From: Phycisphaerae bacterium
GTDB lineage: Bacteria; Planctomycetota; Phycisphaerae; UBA1845; UTPLA1
Assembly: GCA_023150615.1 (NCBI GenBank)
Contig: JAKLKO010000006.1
Span: 1-64,000, forward strand
DNA: 64,000 nucleotides
Reading direction: 5' to 3'
Shown here: positions 1 to 9,403 of the stretch, in pieces
Position numbering within the stretch: position 1 is the first letter of the stretch
Layout of the letters: every line of letters begins with the position of its first letter
The notes under the pieces: generated by a model
What the model was told of the DNA's origin: nothing
What the model saw: the letters and a program-made list of their open reading frames with translations, nothing else
Database searches by the model: none
Translations under genes and position numbers: made by a program

Positions 1-77
1 CGCGCGCGGCGGAGCCGCCGGCGGCGCGCGCTCCGGCGGACCACAAGGAGCCGGACCGGCCGCAGGCGGAAGGATGA
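1..77 (+). CDS. C-terminal tail of an upstream gene (partial)
   Basis: The reading frame starting at base 3 is open to a TGA at 75-77 and encodes about 24 residues rich in Ala, Pro, Arg and Glu. The TGA ends one base before the ATG of the next gene, the same tight spacing used by the following genes, so I take it as the last part of another member of the same operon. Nothing about its function can be read from this tail. Composition alone does not prove that it is coding. Confidence 0.45.
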   Translation, partial: RAAEPPAARAPADHKEPDRPQAEG

Positions 78-78
78 G

Positions 79-687
79 ATGGGACTGTTCGACTGGTTGA
101 CGAAGCGACAGAAGCCGCTTTCGGCGATGACGCGGAGCGAGCTGCGCCGGCAGGAGCTGCTGCTTCAGAAGGAGCGCGACCGCCTTCTGGCGCGCGTGAC
201 GGAGATCGCAGCGAAGAAGCAGGTGATTTTCGAGCGCGGCGCGAAGGAGAAGACGCCCGAGGTTCGTCGGGCCCTGGCGTCCGAGTTCGAGCTGCACACG
301 ACCGAGCAGTTGATGCTCTCGCGGCAGCTCAACATCCGCAGCAAGGAGGCGATCACGGTTTCGCGCCTGCGGATGCTCAAGGAGAACTCCGAGCGTGCGG
401 AGCGCGTCGGCAGCAAGCTGGGCCTGATCGGCGAGAAGGACCTGCTCGCGCTGGAGAAGCTCATCGAGAGCGACGCCATCACCGCCGAGATGTATCAGGA
501 TCGGCTCGATTCCATGCTTGCGGTCGGAGCGGAGGAGGCCGCGGCCGGCCTGACGCCGGCGGGCCAGCAGGTACTGGACGTGTGGGAGCAGATGGACACC
601 GGGCTGATGAAGGACTCGGGCGAGGCGTTTGACGAGGCGGATCGGCGCGTGCGCGAGCAGCACCGCGCGGCAGCCGAGGGCGTCTAG
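79..687 (+). CDS. ESCRT-III (Snf7/CHMP)-like coiled-coil protein A
   Basis: A 202-residue, almost wholly helical charged protein. It opens with a short hydrophobic/basic segment (MGLFDWLTKR), like the membrane-inserting N-terminus of CHMP proteins. A basic helical hairpin follows at about residues 19-108, then a shorter helix (about 119-150, LEKLIESDAITAEMYQDRLD) that resembles the alpha-4 region of CHMP6-type subunits, and an acidic C-terminus. This length and charge order (basic first half, acidic second half) is usual for ESCRT-III subunits. PspA/Vipp1 proteins are also ESCRT-III relatives, but they lack the neighbouring MIT-AAA ATPase. GGAAGG at 68-73 can serve as ribosome binding site. 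The gene lies 12 bases upstream of a second ESCRT-III-like gene and in one operon with a Vps4-like ATPase. The family assignment is inference from pattern and context; a generic coiled-coil protein is the alternative. Confidence 0.6.
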   Translation: MGLFDWLTKRQKPLSAMTRSELRRQELLLQKERDRLLARVTEIAAKKQVIFERGAKEKTPEVRRALASEFELHTTEQLMLSRQLNIRSKEAITVSRLRMLKENSERAERVGSKLGLIGEKDLLALEKLIESDAITAEMYQDRLDSMLAVGAEEAAAGLTPAGQQVLDVWEQMDTGLMKDSGEAFDEADRRVREQHRAAAEGV

Positions 688-699
688 GCAGGGAGCGTC

Positions 700-1308
700 A
701 TGTCACTGTTCAAGAGCTCCGAAGAGCGGCGCATCGAGCGCGACATCAAGATACGGCAGGGCATCCGGCGCATCGAAAAGGCCATCGCCGAGCAGAACAA
801 GTTCACCGACGAGTTCGTGCGCAACGCGCGTCGCGCCAAGCAGATCGGCGACGCGGCGCAGTACGCGTTCATCCGCAACTCGCTCAAGAAGACCGCGACG
901 ATCCGCAAGATGCTCGAGCGGCAATTGCTCGCGGTCAAGAACGCCCTGCTCATCAAGCGTCAGGCCGAGGCCAGCAGCGACTTCGCCACGGCCATGAGCA
1001 CGATGGCCCGTGAGATCAGCCGCATGTTCGGCGAGACGGACCTGAACCGCACGCAACTCGAGTGGGAGAAGGCCATGGCGCAGAGCCAAAGCATGGAGGA
1101 GCGCATGACCATGTTCCTCGAATCGGTCGAGGACATGGCCGCGGCGGACACCGCGGCGACTCCCGCGGAGGTCGTCACCGACGAGGAGATCGACGCGATG
1201 ATCGAGGCCGAGGCCGAGGCCGAGCACGTGCGCGAGAAGGAGAAGCTGGAAGGGCTCCGTGCCGAGCTGGACGCCCTGAAGGGGACGGGTCAGAAAGAGG
1301 CCAAGTAG
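700..1308 (+). CDS. ESCRT-III (CHMP2-like) protein B with MIM1-like tail
   Basis: A 202-residue helical protein. After a short N-terminus (MSLFKSSEE) there is a basic hairpin (about residues 9-90), then a segment rich in Met and Ser (about 93-147) containing LNRTQLEWEKAMAQ and SMEERMTMFLESVED. The segment strongly recalls CHMP2/Vps2, where the EFEKQ and KEEMMND helices lie at this point. An acidic stretch (DEEIDAMIEAEAEAE, 161-175) precedes the last helix, where L186, L190, L193 and K194 fit most of the MIM1 pattern (D/E)xxLxxRLxxL(K/R) that binds MIT domains. The expected Arg is Glu here. The stop codon TAG (1306-1308) overlaps the GTG start of the ATPase gene by one base, so the two should be translationally coupled. 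Predicted role: filament subunit of a membrane-remodelling polymer disassembled by the ATPase. Family assignment is inference. Confidence 0.65.
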   Translation: MSLFKSSEERRIERDIKIRQGIRRIEKAIAEQNKFTDEFVRNARRAKQIGDAAQYAFIRNSLKKTATIRKMLERQLLAVKNALLIKRQAEASSDFATAMSTMAREISRMFGETDLNRTQLEWEKAMAQSQSMEERMTMFLESVEDMAAADTAATPAEVVTDEEIDAMIEAEAEAEHVREKEKLEGLRAELDALKGTGQKEAK

Positions 1309-2414
1309 TGCACGTCAGCTACACGACCTTCGAGCGATTGAAGGACCGCGGCGTCTCGGCCTACCGCGGCGGCGACTACGCGGCCGCACGGAGTTATCTG
1401 ATCCAGGCGGCCGACGCGATGATCCAGCTTGCCGAATCAGCGCCAAGCGACGCGCTGCGGCGGCAGCGGGAGTCGCTGGCGCGCGAGATGATCGAACTGG
1501 CGAAATCCTGCGATCAGCGCAAGGCGGGGGACCGTCCCGCGCGTGCCCGAGAGCAGGACGACAGCTCGGCCGATGCGACGGACTGGATCGTGCGCGACAA
1601 GCCCAACGTCCGCTTCAGCGACATCGCCGGTCTGGAGGACGTCAAGCAGGAAATCCGCCTGAAGATGATCTACCCGTACACGCATCCGGAGCTGGCACAG
1701 CGCTACGGCATCTCAGTCGGCGGTGGACTGCTGCTCTACGGTCCGCCAGGCACGGGCAAGACGATGATCGCCAAGGCCATGGCGGCCGAGATCGACGCGA
1801 CGATGTTCGTGATCTCGCCGGCGCAGATCCTGAGCAAGTGGGTCGGCGAGGCGGAGCAGAACGTCCGCAAGCTGTTCGACGCCGCGAAATCGGAGCCGCG
1901 GGCGATCATCTTCATGGACGAGATCGAGGCGCTCGTGCCGCGCCGCCGGGAATCGCACAGCACCGTCATGACGCGCGTCGTGCCGCAGATCCTGCAGGAG
2001 CTGGAGGGCTTTGACCGGCAGGCAGTGCGGCCGCTGCTGTTCGCCGGGGCAACGAATGAACCGTGGGCGCTCGATCCAGCCGTGATGCGGCCGGGACGCT
2101 TTGACGCGAAGGTCTATGTACCCCTGCCGGATGCACCCGCGCGGCACCGGCTGCTGGAGCTGTACCTGGCGAACCGGCCGCTCGCCGCCGACGTCGATTT
2201 CGCCGATCTGGTCGAACGCCTCGACGGCTTCAGCGGCGCGGACATCCGGGCCGTCGCCGATCGCGCGGCTACGATTCCCTTTATGAACGCCGTCGGTGGC
2301 GAAACTCCGCAGCCGGTGACGCGCGCGGACGTGCTGCGGGCGATCGAAGAGGTCGGTCCGTCGGTGCGCAAGGCCGATCTGGCGCGATTCGAGTCGTTCG
2401 CCGCGGAGAACTGA
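1308..2414 (+). CDS. Vps4-like AAA ATPase with N-terminal MIT-like domain
   Basis: Starts at GTG 1308, overlapping the preceding TAG and preceded by AAAGAGG; 368 residues, close to Vps4 length. Residues 6-70 form a three-helix MIT-like domain (FERLKDRGVSAYRGGDYAAA, then helices with LIQAADAMIQLAE and LAREMIELAK). An acidic linker (71-95) leads to a single AAA domain of the Vps4/katanin/spastin (meiotic) clade: DKPNVRFSDIAGLEDVK, Walker A GPPGTGKT 145-152, pore loop SKWVGEAE 176-183, Walker B IIFMDEIE 200-207, sensor 1 ATN 248-250, arginine-finger region RPGRFD 261-266, FSGADI 308-313. The C-terminal helix (KADLARFESF, 355-364) matches the last helix of Vps4. Known Vps4 hexamers unfold ESCRT-III subunits bound through MIT-MIM contacts; here the putative substrates are the two genes just upstream. 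The AAA call is certain; the MIT call is strong. Confidence 0.9.
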   Translation: MHVSYTTFERLKDRGVSAYRGGDYAAARSYLIQAADAMIQLAESAPSDALRRQRESLAREMIELAKSCDQRKAGDRPARAREQDDSSADATDWIVRDKPNVRFSDIAGLEDVKQEIRLKMIYPYTHPELAQRYGISVGGGLLLYGPPGTGKTMIAKAMAAEIDATMFVISPAQILSKWVGEAEQNVRKLFDAAKSEPRAIIFMDEIEALVPRRRESHSTVMTRVVPQILQELEGFDRQAVRPLLFAGATNEPWALDPAVMRPGRFDAKVYVPLPDAPARHRLLELYLANRPLAADVDFADLVERLDGFSGADIRAVADRAATIPFMNAVGGETPQPVTRADVLRAIEEVGPSVRKADLARFESFAAEN

Positions 2415-2434
2415 TCCGCTCGGAGTGCGGTCGC

Positions 2435-4192
2435 ATGGTGGAACGAAGTCTCGCGATGGCGCTGTCGTCGACCGGCACGGTCGCCGTATTCGGTCCGCTG
2501 GATCGACTGCTCGATGGCGGTCGGTCCGGGCCGGGCGTGCCGAGCAACGCCGCCGCGGCGATCTGGAGCGCCGACGGGTCGGTCGCGGTGATCGGGCCGG
2601 GCGAGCCGGTGGATCGCGGGATGGCGCGCGATGCGCTCGTCTTCCTCGCCGCACCGTTTCCGCTGAGATTCCGCATCCCCGCGCTGCGCGCTGGCGATCG
2701 CTTTGAGGTCGAGGCCGACGTCGAATTCGACGCGACGTTGATCCGCGAGCGCGCGGAATTGTCCGCCTTCCGGCAATTCTGCATGGCGTCGGGGTCGGTC
2801 ACGGCGTCGGCGCTGGCGGTGCGCTTCGAGGAGCACGTCGCGGCGGTGCTGCGCGAGTACGTCGCCGCGCGGCCGGTTGAGTCCGTTGTCGGCAGCGCCG
2901 ACGACGCGGAACTCGATCGAGCGCTGGCGGCACGGTTGCAACCGGAGTTGTTTGCGATCGGGCTGGCGCTGGGGCGCGGCGTACGAACGGCGTTCCGCAG
3001 CGCGGCGTGGGAAGCGCTGCGTCGCGACGAGCAGTCGGCGGCCCTCCGCGAGCGGCAGGCCTCGGCGCAGGCGCGGATCCGCGAAGCGCTGGCCGCGGCC
3101 CGCGAATCGCACCTGGCGCACCTCGAGTCGCTCCTTAAGCGGATGCAGACGCTCTCGCAGGAGCAGGGCGGCGTTCGGCTGGCCGAACTCATCCGCGCGT
3201 TCGACCTCGCCGACCGCGGCGCGCTCTACGAGGGACTGCTCCGCCTCGCGCCGGCGGAGACCGTGACGCAGTTCATCGCGGCCGTTGCCGGTCACGAGCT
3301 GCTGTTCATCGATCCGGCCCGCCCGGAGTCGATCGCGAAGCGCGTGTCGTTCGGCCCAGAGGCTGGTCCGCTGCGGTCGATCCGCTGCGACGCCGACGGC
3401 ACGCTCCTGCTGGGGGCGGCGAACGGCGTGCACCGGTTGCGGCTGGCCGGCGGGCCACGACAGCTCTACATCTTCAAGCCGCCGAGTCCGCTGCGCGGCG
3501 GCGTCAACGCGGCGGTCGAGCGCGGGAGCCGACTGTATGCGACGCACTCCGAGGTCGGCCTGATCGATTGGCCGCTCGATCGGCCGAACGCGCCGGAGTT
3601 TCCGCTGTCCGACCTGACGCAGCGCGTGACGACGGTCCGTAACGTGCAGCTCGATGGGGACGGCCGGTTGTGGCTGGCCGTTGGCCCGAGCGTGGTGAAC
3701 TGGGCGCCCGATTCGCCGCTGGGGGCGGTGCAACTGTTGACCGGCGAGACGGTCGAGTCGCTGCTCGTCACGGCCGACGACGTGCTGGCCGGCCTGTCGA
3801 ACGGTTCGATCCTGCGCTTCCTGCGGGCCGATCCATCCGTACGGGAGGTGGTGCGGCCGGCGACGCGCGACGGCGTGCACGCACTGGCGGCGGTCTCGAC
3901 GGGCGGCGTGCCGCGCGTGCTGGTGGTGGATGGCCGACCGATGGCAGAGTTGCTCGTGCTCAGCGATGCGTACCAGGTTGCGTTCACCGCGCCGGAGCCG
4001 CTGCGCTGGGGCTGGTCGGCCGACGACTGCGTGGTGGCCGCGAACGAGCGCCGAGACCGGCTTTACGTCTGGCAGACGCGCGATCCGGCCCGGTCGCCGG
4101 CGGTCTGTCCGATCGGTCGGCTGAGCGGGCACTCGGTCCAGGATGTGCTGCTGATTCCCCGCGGTCGGATCGTCGAACCGGAGGCAATCTGA
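2435..4192 (+). CDS. SPFH-like/coiled-coil/beta-propeller protein of the ESCRT-like operon
   Basis: 585 residues, 20 bases after the ATPase gene, so probably co-transcribed. Three parts are visible. Residues about 66-190 have the strand and helix pattern of SPFH/band-7 (stomatin, prohibitin) domains, including VEADVEFDATLI and ELFAIGLALGRGVRTAF. Residues 190-250 are a charged coiled coil. About 295-575 consists of repeating beta-rich units (SIRCDADGTLLLGAANGV, NVQLDGDGRLWLAVGPSV, SLLVTADDVLAGLSNGSI) typical of a seven-bladed WD40/YVTN-like propeller. No signal peptide or clear membrane segment is seen. Flotillin-type SPFH proteins mark membrane domains, so a membrane-scaffold or adaptor role next to ESCRT-like proteins is plausible but is inference. 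The propeller part is more certain than the SPFH part. Confidence 0.6.
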   Translation: MVERSLAMALSSTGTVAVFGPLDRLLDGGRSGPGVPSNAAAAIWSADGSVAVIGPGEPVDRGMARDALVFLAAPFPLRFRIPALRAGDRFEVEADVEFDATLIRERAELSAFRQFCMASGSVTASALAVRFEEHVAAVLREYVAARPVESVVGSADDAELDRALAARLQPELFAIGLALGRGVRTAFRSAAWEALRRDEQSAALRERQASAQARIREALAAARESHLAHLESLLKRMQTLSQEQGGVRLAELIRAFDLADRGALYEGLLRLAPAETVTQFIAAVAGHELLFIDPARPESIAKRVSFGPEAGPLRSIRCDADGTLLLGAANGVHRLRLAGGPRQLYIFKPPSPLRGGVNAAVERGSRLYATHSEVGLIDWPLDRPNAPEFPLSDLTQRVTTVRNVQLDGDGRLWLAVGPSVVNWAPDSPLGAVQLLTGETVESLLVTADDVLAGLSNGSILRFLRADPSVREVVRPATRDGVHALAAVSTGGVPRVLVVDGRPMAELLVLSDAYQVAFTAPEPLRWGWSADDCVVAANERRDRLYVWQTRDPARSPAVCPIGRLSGHSVQDVLLIPRGRIVEPEAI

Positions 4193-4644: not shown

Positions 4645-5460
4645 TTAATAGACGATGGTGCCCTCGACCGGCGACGAAGCGCTGGCGTAGAGCTTCTTCG
4701 GGATCCGACCGGCGCGACAGGCGAGGTATCCCGCTTCGATCGCGTGCGACATCGCCCGCGCCATGGATAGCGGGTCCTTCGCGCTGGCCACGCCGGTGTT
4801 GAGCAGCACGCCGTCCGCGCCCAGCTCCATCGCGATGGATACGTCGCTGGCCGTACCGACGCCCGCGTCGACGATGACCGGATAGTCGGGGTCTTCGTTC
4901 TTCAGCGATTCGAGGATGATGCGGATGTTGCTCGGATTGAGCACGCCCTGGCCGGAACCGATCGGCGAGCCGGCCGGCATCACGCTGGCGGCGCCAGCGT
5001 CCTTGAGCCGTCGGGCCATGACGGGATCGTCAGAGGTATAGACGAGCGTGTGGAAGCCATCGGCGCGGAGGGCCTGGAGCGCTTCGAGCGTGCCGATCGG
5101 GTCGGGCAGCAGGGTGCGCTTGTCGGCGAGGACCTCGAGCTTGACCCACGTTGCGCCGGGGTTGTGGAGCTGTTCGAGGATCTCGCGTCCAAGCCGCGCG
5201 ACGCGGACCGCATCCTCGGCCGAGAAGCAGCCGGCCGTGTTCGGCAGGATGGTGTAACGCCGCGTATCGAGGAAGTCGAGCAGGCTGCGGTTCTGGGCGT
5301 CGTAGAGGCGTTCGCGTCGGACGGCGACGGTGACGACCTCGCATCCGCTGGCGTCGAGGCAGTCGCGCATGAGTTCGTACGAGGCGTACTTGCCGGTTCC
5401 GACAAAGAGCCGCGAGCGAAACGTCTTGTCCGCGATGCGAAGGGGCGGGAGTTCGAGCAT
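4645..5460 (-). CDS. thiG: Thiazole synthase ThiG
   Basis: 271 residues, full length for ThiG. The protein forms the thiazole phosphate of thiamine from 1-deoxyxylulose 5-phosphate, dehydroglycine and ThiS-thiocarboxylate in the cytoplasm. The N-terminus carries the family motif RLFVGTGKY (18-25), the Schiff-base lysine is in WVKLEV (K107), and the phosphate-binding part near the C-terminus reads [11 protein letters not shown] and [13 protein letters not shown]. It follows thiS by 15 bases, the standard thiS-thiG pair. No TPP riboswitch was seen upstream. Assignment is secure. Confidence 0.97.
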
Positions 5461-5475
5461 GATGCGCTTCGTGCC

Positions 5476-5676
5476 TCAGCCGCCGCCGACGAGCGTGACG
5501 ATCTCGACGCGGTCGCCTTCGGCGAGAGGCGTCCGCGCGAAGTCCGGGCGCTTGATGAGCTGCTTGTTCAGCTCGACGGCGAACGGCGGGATCGGCCGGC
5601 GGCGGTCCAGTAGCGCTTCGAGCGTAGCCACGCCGAGATCGACCCGTTCTTCCTGTCCGTTGATGATCAGCTTCAT
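5476..5676 (-). CDS. thiS: Sulfur carrier protein ThiS
   Basis: 66 residues starting MKLIINGQEE, a ubiquitin-like beta-grasp protein that ends in the required Gly-Gly (VTLVGGG), whose last Gly is adenylated and converted to the thiocarboxylate used by ThiG. The C-terminus has one Gly beyond the canonical pair, so the last residue still is Gly. I chose the ATG at 5676 because ThiS homologues begin there; an in-frame ATG at 5709 would add 11 residues. A -10-like TATGAT on the minus strand near 5722-5717 would place the mRNA start close to 5711, so the longer, almost leaderless form cannot be excluded. Confidence 0.92.
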   Translation of the reverse strand: MKLIINGQEERVDLGVATLEALLDRRRPIPPFAVELNKQLIKRPDFARTPLAEGDRVEIVTLVGGG

Positions 5677-5739
5677 GTTCCGTCGGGCGGTGATTGTCGC
5701 ACGAATCACCCGGGAATCATAGGCCCGCCCCGGCGCGAG

Positions 5740-6030
5740 TTATCGCGGCAGGACCTGCGCGCGGCCGACGAGAAGATAGACGATAACGATCGCGGTGAGG
5801 GCGAGGGCGATGCCTATCTTTGCCTGCGTGCGCTGGGCGCGTTCGGCCAGGGAGAGATCGCGGTGCTTGCGCTGCGACAAGAGCACGAGTCCGCCGAGGG
5901 TCATCGCGAGGACGGAGCCGTACATCACGATGGGCAGGACGGCGTCGTGGAACGCGGCACGGAACAGGAGCATCGCCACCGCCAGCAGGAGCATCAGCAG
6001 GCCGAGCCAGGCGGCGATCAGGGCGAGCAT
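5740..6030 (-). CDS. Small membrane protein, unknown function
   Basis: 96 residues with three hydrophobic helices (about 3-24, 32-52 and 71-90) separated by a charged loop (QRKHRDLSLAERAQRTQAK). The ATG lies 10 bases after the speB stop, which suggests the polyamine genes and this one form one transcript. Family not recognised. Confidence 0.7.
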   Translation of the reverse strand: MLALIAAWLGLLMLLLAVAMLLFRAAFHDAVLPIVMYGSVLAMTLGGLVLLSQRKHRDLSLAERAQRTQAKIGIALALTAIVIVYLLVGRAQVLPR

Positions 6031-6040
6031 GCTGCGTCGC

Positions 6041-6919
6041 TCACTTCCGCGCGCCGGTTTCGATGAACGCGATCAGCTTGTAGATCAGCTTGGCGGCGAG
6101 GAACTCGGTCTGCATCGAGCCGGGCAGCGGCATGACCTCGACCACGTCGCAGCCGACGACCCGGTGCGCGAGCGTCACGGCGCGGAGCAGGTCGGTTACC
6201 TGGTACCAGTCGAGTCCGCCGGGTTCGGGCGTGCCGGTGCCGGGGGCGCAGGCCGGGTCAAACCCGTCGATGTCGATCGTGACGTAGACGGGCGATTCGA
6301 GCAGGTCGACGGCCTCCTCGATCCAGTCGAGCCGCACGCGACAATCGCGGGCGGTGATGGGGCGGTAGCGGTGGACCTGCATGAATCGGTGCTCTTCGGC
6401 CGAGTAGTTGCGGATGCCGACAGCGACGAGCGACGCGCCGGCGTCGAGGACGCGCCGCATGGCGCTGGCGTGCGAGTACTTCGTGCCCTCGTACGCGTCG
6501 CGCAGGTCGGCGTGCGCGTCGATCTGGAGCACGCTCAGCTTGCGATGCTTCGTGCGGACGGCGCGGACGAGCGCGCTCGTCACGGAGTGTTCACCGCCGA
6601 GGCCGATCAGGAACTTGCCCGCGGCGACCACGGGCCGTGCGGCGCTGAACACGGCGCTGTGCTGCGCCTCGGGTCCGGCCATCTCCGGCGCCACGGGGGG
6701 CAGCGTCGCAATCCCCGCGCGATGAAACTCGCCGCCGAGCTGCTCGTCGAAAAGCTCGACCTGCTGGCTGGCGGAGATGATCGCGCGCGGCCCGTTGCGC
6801 GTGCCGACCTGGAAGCTGGTCGTCGAGTCGTAGGGGATCGGCAGGACGGCGTAGCGGCTGCGCCGCGGATCGGAGTAGCGCGGCGGCAGTCCGAGGAAGT
6901 TGTCGGGCGCGGCGGTCAT
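6041..6919 (-). CDS. speB: Agmatinase family ureohydrolase (SpeB-like)
   Basis: 292 residues, usual length. Agmatinase hydrolyses agmatine to putrescine and urea at a binuclear Mn centre. The Mn-binding motifs are present: GGEHSVT, QIDAHADLRD (DAHxD) and DIDGFDPACAPGTGTPEPGG (DxDxxDP). The start ATG 6919 overlaps the TGA of the upstream deoxyhypusine-synthase-like gene (ATGA, four bases), so translation is probably coupled. I preferred this start because the upstream extension in the same frame is Arg/Ala-rich and lies inside the previous gene. Agmatinase and other ureohydrolases such as guanidinobutyrase or formiminoglutamase are hard to separate by eye; the polyamine-type neighbour favours agmatinase. 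Confidence 0.88.
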   Translation of the reverse strand: MTAAPDNFLGLPPRYSDPRRSRYAVLPIPYDSTTSFQVGTRNGPRAIISASQQVELFDEQLGGEFHRAGIATLPPVAPEMAGPEAQHSAVFSAARPVVAAGKFLIGLGGEHSVTSALVRAVRTKHRKLSVLQIDAHADLRDAYEGTKYSHASAMRRVLDAGASLVAVGIRNYSAEEHRFMQVHRYRPITARDCRVRLDWIEEAVDLLESPVYVTIDIDGFDPACAPGTGTPEPGGLDWYQVTDLLRAVTLAHRVVGCDVVEVMPLPGSMQTEFLAAKLIYKLIAFIETGARK

Positions 6920-8115
6920 CGCGCGGCCGCTCCCGCGGCGTCGCGCAGCTTCAATCCGGCGGACCGCAGCTCGGCGAGCAGTTGCCGGTTGCGCCGGGCG
7001 TCCGCGGTGAGGGATCGGACGTAGGCGTCGATCTGGCGATAGAGCCGGCGCGGCCTGCGCGGCCTGTTGCGGATCAGCACGTACTGAGCCAGCAGGGGCA
7101 GCGTCAGCGACGCGCACGAGTAGACGACGACGTTGTTGCGATGGGCGTCCTTGATTTTGCCCCAGCTTCGCGCTTCCTGCGGCGTCGCGCCGCTGAGTCC
7201 GCCCCAGTGCGGCGCATCGACCGTCAGTTGGATGAAGTAATCGTGCCCGCCGCCCGACCTGTCGTAGAGAATCTGGTGCAGGGTCGGCTGCGTCTGGAGG
7301 TAGAAGTTCTTGGGCGAGCCGCCGCCGACCTCGATGACGCCGTTTTCGCTGGCGCCGCGGACGATGGCCGCCGTCTCGATCACGTCGGCGAGCGGATCGA
7401 GCATCAACGGCTGCCCGAAGATCCGCGGGATGATCAGGTTCATTCCGATCGAACTGTCGCCCGGCGAGCTGGTGTAGACCGGCACGTCGTAGCGATGAGC
7501 CGTCACGACGAGCGACTTGTCGGGCGCGACGGCGTCGCGCGCCGCGGCGCGACCCAGCTCCCAGTGGAGCTTCGCGGTCGACATCGGCCGGCTCGTATCC
7601 ACGTGCCGCAGCGCGCGGAGGATGATCTTGTCGGTCGCCTGGAGCGTGCCGCGCTCCTCGATGTAGGTGTCGTAGATCCGCGCGACGCCGACGTCGGCCA
7701 GCTCATTGTCATCGACGGCCCAGTGGCCCTGCCGGACCGGAAAGCCGTAGGCGCGGTGCAGGTCGTGATAGAGATTCGCGCCGGTGGCGATGATCCAATC
7801 GACGAAACCGGCCTTGATGAGCGAGTTGAGAGCGCCCTGCATGCCGATGGGCGTCATCGCGCCGGTGAGCGTCAGCCCAACGGTGGCGCCGGCCTTGAGC
7901 ATCCGCGAGTAGAGTTCGCACGCCTCGGCGAGGCGCCGTGCGTTGAAGCCGCTGCGGCCGAAGCAGCGGTCGATCATGTCGGCGACGTCTTCGTTTCCTT
8001 CGAGGCGTAGGGGTTCGATCTGCGGGCCGGACATCATCTCGCGGCAACGTCGGGCGCGCGAATCTTGGGTCGGACGGCGGTCGCGACCGTTTCGGGGAGG
8101 CTTGTGCTTGGCCAT
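6916..8115 (-). CDS. Deoxyhypusine synthase-family protein (probable homospermidine-type aminobutyltransferase)
   Basis: 399 residues from ATG 8115, which has an excellent ribosome binding site (GGAGGAC, five bases upstream). The fold motifs of deoxyhypusine synthase are kept: GLTLTGAMTPIG (80-91), IIATGANLYHDLH, VYTSSPGDSSIG (213-224), GGGSPKNF (264-271), and the active-site lysine of human DHS (in SWGK) at K320. Bacteria lack hypusinated eIF5A. Bacterial members beside speB are thought to transfer an aminobutyl group from spermidine to putrescine, giving homospermidine, or to act in related polyamine steps. The overlap with speB makes a putrescine-linked role likely. Substrate is inference; family is secure. 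Confidence 0.9.
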   Translation of the reverse strand: MAKHKPPRNGRDRRPTQDSRARRCREMMSGPQIEPLRLEGNEDVADMIDRCFGRSGFNARRLAEACELYSRMLKAGATVGLTLTGAMTPIGMQGALNSLIKAGFVDWIIATGANLYHDLHRAYGFPVRQGHWAVDDNELADVGVARIYDTYIEERGTLQATDKIILRALRHVDTSRPMSTAKLHWELGRAAARDAVAPDKSLVVTAHRYDVPVYTSSPGDSSIGMNLIIPRIFGQPLMLDPLADVIETAAIVRGASENGVIEVGGGSPKNFYLQTQPTLHQILYDRSGGGHDYFIQLTVDAPHWGGLSGATPQEARSWGKIKDAHRNNVVVYSCASLTLPLLAQYVLIRNRPRRPRRLYRQIDAYVRSLTADARRNRQLLAELRSAGLKLRDAAGAAAR

Positions 8116-8151
8116 GCGTCCTCCTGCACCGTCGGAACAAAACGGGCCGCG

Positions 8152-8157
8152 ATTATA
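8152..8157 (-). promoter_or_regulatory. -10 box (TATAAT) for the DHS-like/speB operon
   Basis: On the minus strand a perfect TATAAT reads from 8157 to 8152, 36 bases before the ATG at 8115, which leaves a leader of about 30 bases containing the GGAGGAC ribosome binding site. No good -35 box is visible. It places the palindrome at 8232-8262 outside the operon's mRNA. Confidence 0.55.
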
Positions 8158-8225
8158 CGGGTGGCGTGCGAGGGGTGCATGGTGTCCGCGCGCGGGCCCC
8201 GGGGCGGCCATCGTGTCGACGGCGT

Positions 8226-8462: not shown

Positions 8463-8650
8463 CCCAAGGCCAACCCCCAAAGTTGGGGAAAAACCCCCGA
8501 TTTTCCGCACGTCGAGATAATGTTGACGGTCGATTGCAGATGGGGGCCGATTGAGCGTTGCGGTTCGGCGGATGAAGATGCGAGGGGTGAAATACCCCCG
8601 TCGTTGCCACGGTCGCGACTCGAGCGGTCGTGACAGGAGACCGCGTTGAT

Positions 8651-9403
8651 ATGAAACACGTTTTCATGCTGTTTGTGTCGGGGGTTGCGGTCGTCGCCCC
8701 AGGATCCCTGCTGCACGGAGGCGAACCGACGGCGGGTGCGCCGCGTCCGGACGAGGTGATGCGGCTGCTGCAAGCCGGCAACGCGCGATTCTCCGGAGGT
8801 CAGCCCGCACATCCACGCGTCGGGCCGGAACGCCGGATGGAGACAGTCACGGCCGGACAGCATCCGATCGCGACGATCGTGTCGTGCTCCGATTCGCGCG
8901 TTCCCGTGGAGTTGATCTTCGACGAGGGGATCGGCGACCTGTTCGTCATTCGCGTCGCTGGCAACGTGTGCGGTACGGACGAGACGGGATCGATCGAGTA
9001 CGGGATCGAGCATCTCGGCACGCCGCTTCTGGTGGTGATGGGCCACCGCGAGTGCGGTGCGGTGACGGCGGTGTGCCGTCAGACGCATACGGAAGGGAGC
9101 ATTCCGATGCTGCTGGCGCACATCCGGCCGGCGGTGGAGCGGACGCGGGTGCGGCGGCCGGAGCTTCGCGGCCCGGATCTGGTCAACGCGGCGATCCGGG
9201 AGAACGTGTGGCACGGCATTGAGGACGTGCTGACGCACAGCGAGATCGCGCGGGGGCGCGTGGCGTCGGGAAAGCTCATGATCGTCGGCGCCATCTACGA
9301 TTTGCGGACGGCGCGGGTGGCGTGGCTGGGGGTGCATCCGGAGCAGGCGCGGTTTCTGGCCGCGGCGTCGAGCGATGCGGCGACACAGCCCGCCGGTCCA
9401 TAG
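8651..9403 (+). CDS. Beta-class carbonic anhydrase with signal peptide
   Basis: 250 residues from ATG 8651, with AGGAGA ten bases upstream. Carbonic anhydrase interconverts CO2 and bicarbonate. The zinc ligands of the beta class are all present: C79 and D81 in SCSDSR, H132 and C135 in GHRECGAV. The first 23 residues (MKHVFMLFVSGVAVVAPGSLLHG) look like a signal peptide, so the enzyme should act in the periplasm, unlike most bacterial beta-CAs. It converges with mgtE with nine bases between stops. Confidence 0.93.
   Translation: MKHVFMLFVSGVAVVAPGSLLHGGEPTAGAPRPDEVMRLLQAGNARFSGGQPAHPRVGPERRMETVTAGQHPIATIVSCSDSRVPVELIFDEGIGDLFVIRVAGNVCGTDETGSIEYGIEHLGTPLLVVMGHRECGAVTAVCRQTHTEGSIPMLLAHIRPAVERTRVRRPELRGPDLVNAAIRENVWHGIEDVLTHSEIARGRVASGKLMIVGAIYDLRTARVAWLGVHPEQARFLAAASSDAATQPAGP

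Follow-up and report, generated by a model that had tools for sequence, protein, structure and literature searches.

Organization of the Locus

The window, by which we mean the whole stretch of 64,000 nucleotides analyzed here (positions 1 to 64,000 of contig JAKLKO010000006.1 in the Phycisphaerae bacterium assembly GCA_023150615.1), begins with a tightly packed run of genes on the forward strand, two of which encode a divergent ESCRT-III (endosomal sorting complex required for transport III)/Snf7 protein (protein 2) and a Vps4-like AAA ATPase (protein 3). A preliminary description of this DNA had claimed that three adjacent genes, overlapping or nearly touching, specify two ESCRT-III-like proteins and a Vps4-type ATPase with an MIT-like domain, and that together they look like a complete minimal unit. 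The three genes lie where it placed them, and the features at the start of the window are the following.

3–77, + strand: final codons and TGA stop of an upstream gene, whose product ends in PADHKEPDRPQAEG as read from the sequence
79–687, + strand: protein 1, 202 amino acids, helical, with a hairpin homologous to the C-terminal hairpin of the upstream gene product
700–1308, + strand: protein 2, 202 amino acids, divergent ESCRT-III/Snf7 protein
1308–2414, + strand: protein 3, 368 amino acids, Vps4/CdvC-like AAA ATPase
2435–4192, + strand: protein 4, 585 amino acids, SPFH/Band-7-like N-terminal half and beta-propeller-like C-terminal half

Successive gaps between the genes of proteins 1 to 4 measure 12, −1 and 20 bases, the gene of protein 3 starting at a GTG codon that overlaps by one base the TAG stop of the gene of protein 2. 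All four open reading frames are real genes and not chance occurrences, because their orthologues keep order and strand in dozens of named Phycisphaerae contigs, complete chromosomes included. The named relatives that carry the cluster are Phycisphaerae and other Planctomycetota metagenome-assembled genomes (MAGs), with complete chromosomes among them (CP030884, CP070718, CP054190).

Protein 2 is a Divergent ESCRT-III Protein

As single queries, proteins 1 and 2 have no match in either Pfam or NCBIfam, nor does protein 2 have one in the PDB; a six-frame search of the host's own genome with the Pfam Snf7 model is also negative, because the copy in the window is among the divergent members of its family. 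Of 24 orthologues of protein 2 collected across the phylum, 17 match Pfam Snf7 (best E-value 2.7e-6), while no other family is matched by more than 2 of them; in the first set of 14 members Snf7 was matched by 2 (best 6e-4). Neither protein 1 nor protein 2 matches the PspA_IM30 family of Pfam. When the profile of the wide set of protein 2 sequences is compared to all PDB sequences, 8 chains are retrieved at E≤10, every one of them CHMP3, Snf7 or CHMP2A (best 0.0038); the profile of the narrow set places CHMP3 first, at 0.038. Profile-profile comparison with hhalign, which the preliminary description had put forward as a check on both helical proteins, bears it out for protein 2: the E-value is 5e-4 against an ESCRT-III alignment and 5.5e-5 when CHMP3 alone is used, over residues 1–144, the reversed controls giving 0.44–0.52. 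No sequence similarity between protein 2 and PspA was detected in the same kind of comparison (0.27), by which PspA and ESCRT-III are equally silent to each other. The reference sequences included CHMP4B, CHMP2A, CHMP1B, VPS4B and E. coli PspA; in a check against PDB chains yeast Vps4 was identical and Snf7 agreed within a few residues.

The fold points in the same direction. Protein 2 starts with M(G/S)LFKS, and its AlphaFold2 model (pLDDT 77.7, pTM 0.52) places helices at residues 7–49 and 52–109, which make up the long alpha1/alpha2 hairpin, and at 115–152 and 161–199. The top 17 Foldseek matches of this model are all ESCRT-III or Vipp1, with CHMP2A/CHMP3 leading, and include CHMP2A-CHMP3, Snf7, CHMP1B, Asgard ESCRT-IIIB and Vipp1. 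Taken together, we conclude that protein 2 is a divergent ESCRT-III/Snf7 protein. Its C-terminal region contains one further feature that may bear on the ATPase, a motif resembling the MIT-interacting motif 1 (MIM1):

1255–1281, + strand: MIM1-like motif LRAELDALK, residues 186–194 of protein 2, candidate docking site for the ATPase N-domain

Among the 76 protein 2 orthologues of the named set, 70 show the corresponding pattern, L..x[LI]..[LI][KR], against 1% of composition shuffles; in its exact form the motif is absent from the 29 orthologues of other classes. Since the rows are related and the other classes differ, a role of this motif in docking is suggestive only, and we treat it as a lead.

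Protein 3 is a Vps4-like AAA ATPase

Protein 3 consists of an MIT/TPR-like N-domain (approximately residues 8–70), an AAA core (141–273), a lid and a Vps4_C tail (334–367). The AAA, AAA_lid_3 and Vps4_C families all score over their Pfam cut-offs; Vps4_C, in particular, reaches 25.3 bits in the window copy (cut-off 21.3) and is present in 48 of the 51 orthologues. The AAA phylogeny suggested in the preliminary description gave the expected answer: in trees that took in Vps4, CdvC, the D1 and D2 domains of Cdc48, and FtsH, with katanin, spastin and PAN left out, protein 3 groups with Vps4 and CdvC against Cdc48 D1/D2 and FtsH with a support of 98/94, and this bipartition remains when the analysis is confined to the AAA core or when the bacterial TPR-AAA group described below is omitted. 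Inside this grouping protein 3 stands apart from Vps4+CdvC, on a long branch of its own. The NCBIfam model for CdvC, one of the top single-AAA models for this protein, covers residues 15–364 with 221 bits, below its cut-off; by eye, the segments GEAEQNV and ATN.PW are common to protein 3 and CdvC. A Cdc48-type assignment, to which the best PDB matches (two-domain proteins) and the TIGR01243 model (227 bits vs 221 for CdvC) would lead, was rejected on the trees. Thus, protein 3 is a Vps4-like AAA ATPase on the Vps4/CdvC side of the family.

The N-domain is more difficult to classify. It covers the MIT region in the alignment to the CdvC model, and it aligns end to end with an MIT profile over 54 columns (E = 3e-4; reversed 0.13); with a wider set the values are 6.5e-4 over 59 columns for MIT and 3e-5 over 24 columns for a consensus TPR. 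A PDB profile search ranks the MIT domain of a chitin synthase second, weakly (0.14), and Pfam returns a weak, sub-threshold TPR_2 match and no MIT match. Because a consensus TPR fits about as well and Pfam favors TPR_2, we call this region a putative MIT-like helical domain. Therefore, of the earlier claim concerning a Vps4-type ATPase with an MIT-like domain, the first part stands, through the grouping with Vps4/CdvC and the Vps4_C tail, while the second is one possibility alongside a TPR repeat.

Two groups of related ATPases were also encountered. A separate bacterial TPR-AAA family of about 460–495 amino acids (loci L144, L149 and L150, from genomes G023, G026 and G048) falls in the tree with protein 3, on the Vps4/CdvC side, and is perhaps identical with the VPS4-like group that Ravi et al. 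described in bacteria. In other planctomycete classes protein 2 is flanked by two AAA genes, as a second and more distant one, approximately 31–36% identical to protein 3, lies just upstream of it (L194:1–828, L195:3–644, L200:2–652, L204:3314–4060).

Protein 1 and the Extent of the Cluster

The status of protein 1 is different from that of protein 2. In the Foldseek search with its AlphaFold2 model (pLDDT 79.7) designed bundles come first and CdvB2 third; with VIA-align BAR domains lead and ESCRT-III proteins reach a Z-score of about 7, though scores of this kind are not decisive, many proteins being matched by long helical hairpins. For want of a match, protein 1 was not filed as ESCRT-III; it would be ESCRT-III-like by its predicted architecture only. 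The claim of two ESCRT-III-like proteins is accordingly retained for protein 2, by Pfam Snf7, PDB profile, profile-profile comparison and fold, and not for protein 1, whose sequence profile gave no significant match and whose model is ambiguous.

The profile of protein 1 does match the C-terminal hairpin of the upstream gene product (6e-5; reversed 0.05), a hairpin that is ESCRT-III-like in shape and that matches protein 1 but not ESCRT-III directly. The same product has an N-terminal domain and, N-terminal to the hairpin, a probable winged helix, judging from its sequence pattern and a weak Pfam HTH_35 match in 2 of 20 members at 0.014. In relatives this gene lies directly 5′ of the gene of protein 1. 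In the present genome the first base of the window is also the end of a contig (G000:C66:1), which interrupts the operon, and the body of the upstream gene is found at the end of another contig, C6 (L135 from 8288), where the sequence breaks off within it. Two more genes precede it on C6:

L135:6994–8043: zinc-ribbon Ser/Thr kinase, with plain Pfam matches for both kinase and zinc ribbons
L135:6562–6960: small multi-pass membrane protein

This arrangement, from the membrane protein and the kinase through the winged-helix/hairpin protein and proteins 1 and 2 to the ATPase and then the SPFH/propeller protein, is repeated in tens of named contigs of the class, some of them interrupted by inserts. 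Since the window begins at a contig end and a further gene continues on C6, the three-gene unit of the preliminary description is part of a conserved cluster of at least seven genes, and is not minimal. Protein 4, whose gene keeps its position after that of the ATPase, matches Band_7 in 7 of 27 orthologues (best 2.3e-6) and scattered propeller families.

Variable inserts between the genes of protein 2 and the ATPase occur in some relatives (cl25 genes, for example L099:6442–7089 and L095:3406–4053), and include a nucleotidyltransferase-like gene. Outside the cluster, inspection by eye of window positions 4645–8211 (− strand) and 8630–9403 (+ strand) indicates thiazole synthase-like, agmatinase-like adjoining deoxyhypusine-synthase-like, and carbonic-anhydrase-like genes.

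Distribution and Co-occurrence

We have studied the distribution of the two central genes in 248 genomes of the class Phycisphaerae and in 392 genomes across the phylum, other classes included. Protein 2 is present in 67 of the 248 and 56 of the 392, and orthologues of the ATPase in 65 of the 248. Within the class, 63 genomes have both genes, 4 only protein 2, 2 only the ATPase and 179 neither, which corresponds to phi = 0.94, a value not corrected for kinship. All 6 genomes with a single gene belong to one family (f10) and are mostly incomplete or fragmented assemblies; in the f10 genomes that were checked the ATPase gene is elsewhere in the genome, yet retained. Of 24 genomes with protein 2 from other classes, 18 have an ATPase orthologue (E<1e-70) and 1 an adjacent divergent copy; in most of those with both, the ATPase gene comes immediately after that of protein 2 and is read in the same direction, so that the two together form the core of the system. 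The cluster genes are spread over many families and several planctomycete classes, with divergence down to 42–54% identity. These surveys agree with the earlier suggestions that the host is a planctomycete (it belongs to the class Phycisphaerae) and that the genes form a set, in view of their tight co-occurrence. One locus carrying the full planctomycete cluster (L087) is titled Alphaproteobacteria bacterium (IP29b_bin.190), and is probably a mislabelled MAG.

FtsZ is the usual bacterial cell-division protein. None of the 248 class genomes contains an FtsZ over cut-off, while 13 of 14 controls were positive, Sulfolobus being the exception.

Relation to Known Systems

The ESCRT-III/Vps4 cycle is established for archaea and eukaryotes. 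Both the archaeal Cdv system (CdvB with CdvC/Vps4) and eukaryotic ESCRT-III/Vps4 resemble the planctomycete set in the association of an ESCRT-III gene with an AAA ATPase of the Vps4 side that has a helical N-domain and a Vps4_C tail, and, apparently, in the use of several ESCRT-III-like subunits and of a partner with a probable winged helix, a feature also of CdvB and CHMP7. The planctomycete set differs from them in being bacterial and very divergent in sequence, in having RPGR for RRF in the ATPase and an N-domain that is MIT-like only, in the location of the predicted winged helix, which is N-terminal to the hairpin and in a separate protein, and in its linkage to SPFH/propeller, kinase and small membrane proteins; no CdvA is found among the conserved genes of the cluster. 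PspA and Vipp1 (IM30) are the accepted bacterial members of the ESCRT-III superfamily. They share with the planctomycete system the same broad fold, Vipp1 being among the Foldseek matches of protein 2, and SPFH partners; the latter, however, shows no PspA sequence or PspA_IM30 match and has a Vps4-like ATPase of its own.

Published surveys place the pairing of ESCRT-III with a Vps4-like ATPase only in archaea and eukaryotes, and a search of open-access literature, preprints excluded, for a link of planctomycetes to ESCRT or CdvB turned up no description of this system. The idea has some precedent, because associations of Snf7 with AAA+ ATPases in other bacteria have already been noted: Ravi et al. 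2024 (PMC11237479) described bacterial Snf7/PspA neighborhoods with AAA+ ATPases and proposed ATP-driven membrane remodeling. Their cases are like ours in the proximity of a Snf7-clade protein to an AAA+ ATPase in bacteria. In their survey, cases with a VPS4-like ATPase are without snf7 and have a gene for a TPR protein with six transmembrane segments (TPR-6TM) instead, those with Snf7 and AAA are transporter operons with transmembrane Snf7 or double AAA, and the main text makes no mention of planctomycetes. The Meth_adaptin ESCRT loci of Makarova et al. 2024 (PMC10936438) also unite an SPFH protein with ESCRT components at a single locus; unlike the present one, they are archaeal.

A Possible Membrane-Remodeling Machine

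Protein 2 has been identified, the ATPase has been placed, the genes cluster and co-occur in a conserved way, and FtsZ is absent; on this basis we consider it probable that the cluster encodes a vertically inherited bacterial membrane-remodeling machine of the ESCRT-III/Vps4 type. By analogy with the known cycle, protein 2 would polymerize on the inner surface of the membrane by means of its alpha1/alpha2 hairpin, and would insert its short N-terminal segment, M(G/S)LFKS, into the lipid, as the ESCRT-III fold suggests; protein 1 and the winged-helix-plus-hairpin protein would be probable partner or nucleating subunits. A hexamer of protein 3, to go by its AAA family and the conservation of its motifs, would use its N-terminal helical domain to hold protein 2 by the C-terminal tail and would pull subunits from the polymer with ATP, leading to constriction and recycling. 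The SPFH/propeller protein and the small membrane protein might set the site on the membrane, and the zinc-ribbon Ser/Thr kinase might control assembly. As to the process served, our leading guess, a tentative one, is membrane fission at division or budding, because FtsZ is absent; vesicle formation or invagination is possible but on the unlikely side, and membrane repair somewhat unlikely. The full combination, in which a machine that is vertically inherited and not a recent archaeal loan carries out FtsZ-independent fission at division or internal membrane budding, is doubtful as a whole.

Several observations weigh against such a machine. The single E-values for protein 2 are modest and their strength is in their agreement; moreover, the VIA-align match of protein 2 to Snf7 (5fd9; Z = 9.6, 2.4 Å, 105 residues) is tied with unrelated helical hairpins, so that we place weight on the agreement of methods and on no single number. 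Protein 1 has no match in Pfam and none to an ESCRT-III profile. The nearest neighbor of protein 3 in the trees is the bacterial TPR-AAA family, its N-domain is not separable from a TPR repeat, and 50 of its 51 orthologues have the arginine-finger motif RPGR(F/L)D in place of the RRF of the Vps4/CdvC references, which is why we name it Vps4-like and not Vps4 proper. Some planctomycetes with protein 2 have no detectable ATPase orthologue (G268, G292 and G312, of family f46, and G251), and may have either a different motor or a PspA-like mode free of ATPase. Finally, FtsZ is missing from members of the class with and without the operon; therefore the operon is not a general replacement of FtsZ and division does not require it, and it may be one solution among several to the absence of FtsZ.

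Other interpretations can be considered in the light of these data. Protein 2, ESCRT-III by descent, might work in envelope stress and repair in the manner of PspA/Vipp1, coating damaged membrane at a site marked by the SPFH protein, with the AAA ATPase merely recycling it. The downstream SPFH partner, found also in PspA loci and in archaeal ESCRT loci (PMC10936438), and a kinase that would fit a regulated response agree with this proposal, as does the distribution of PspA: the host has none over cut-off (one weak PspA_IM30 match, on contig C5, is below it), and PspA occurs in 3 of the 67 genomes with protein 2 vs 24 of the 181 without (p = 0.06). We nevertheless regard it as unlikely, since the sequence of protein 2 is like CHMP/Snf7 and not PspA, and PspA systems in general lack a dedicated Vps4-like ATPase. 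The possibility that planctomycetes recently acquired a Cdv system from archaea would be in keeping with the transfers of VPS4-like ATPases to bacteria in a published survey (PMC11237479) and with the good rank of the CdvC model for protein 3; we give it little credence, because protein 3 is a long branch outside Vps4+CdvC, and because the wide spread of the genes over families and classes, together with their divergence, means that any transfer is old. A reading that takes proteins 1 and 2 for unrelated coiled-coil adaptors and gives the ATPase a place in protein quality control, as an unfoldase like Cdc48 whose adaptor domain is of the TPR type, could appeal to the promiscuity of long helical hairpins in structural matching, the retained RPGR motif and the TPR_2 match; it is very improbable in view of the Snf7 matches of most protein 2 orthologues, a PDB profile search that yields ESCRT-III chains only, the AAA tree and the Vps4_C tail.

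If the proposal of an ESCRT-III/Vps4-type machine is correct, an ATP-driven ESCRT would exist within the bacterial domain, and the conservation of the pair across planctomycetes without FtsZ shifts the place where an ATP-driven ESCRT cycle may have arisen. As a candidate agent of membrane fission or invagination in such organisms, the pair is concrete and testable, and could explain how some FtsZ-less planctomycetes divide or shape their internal membranes.

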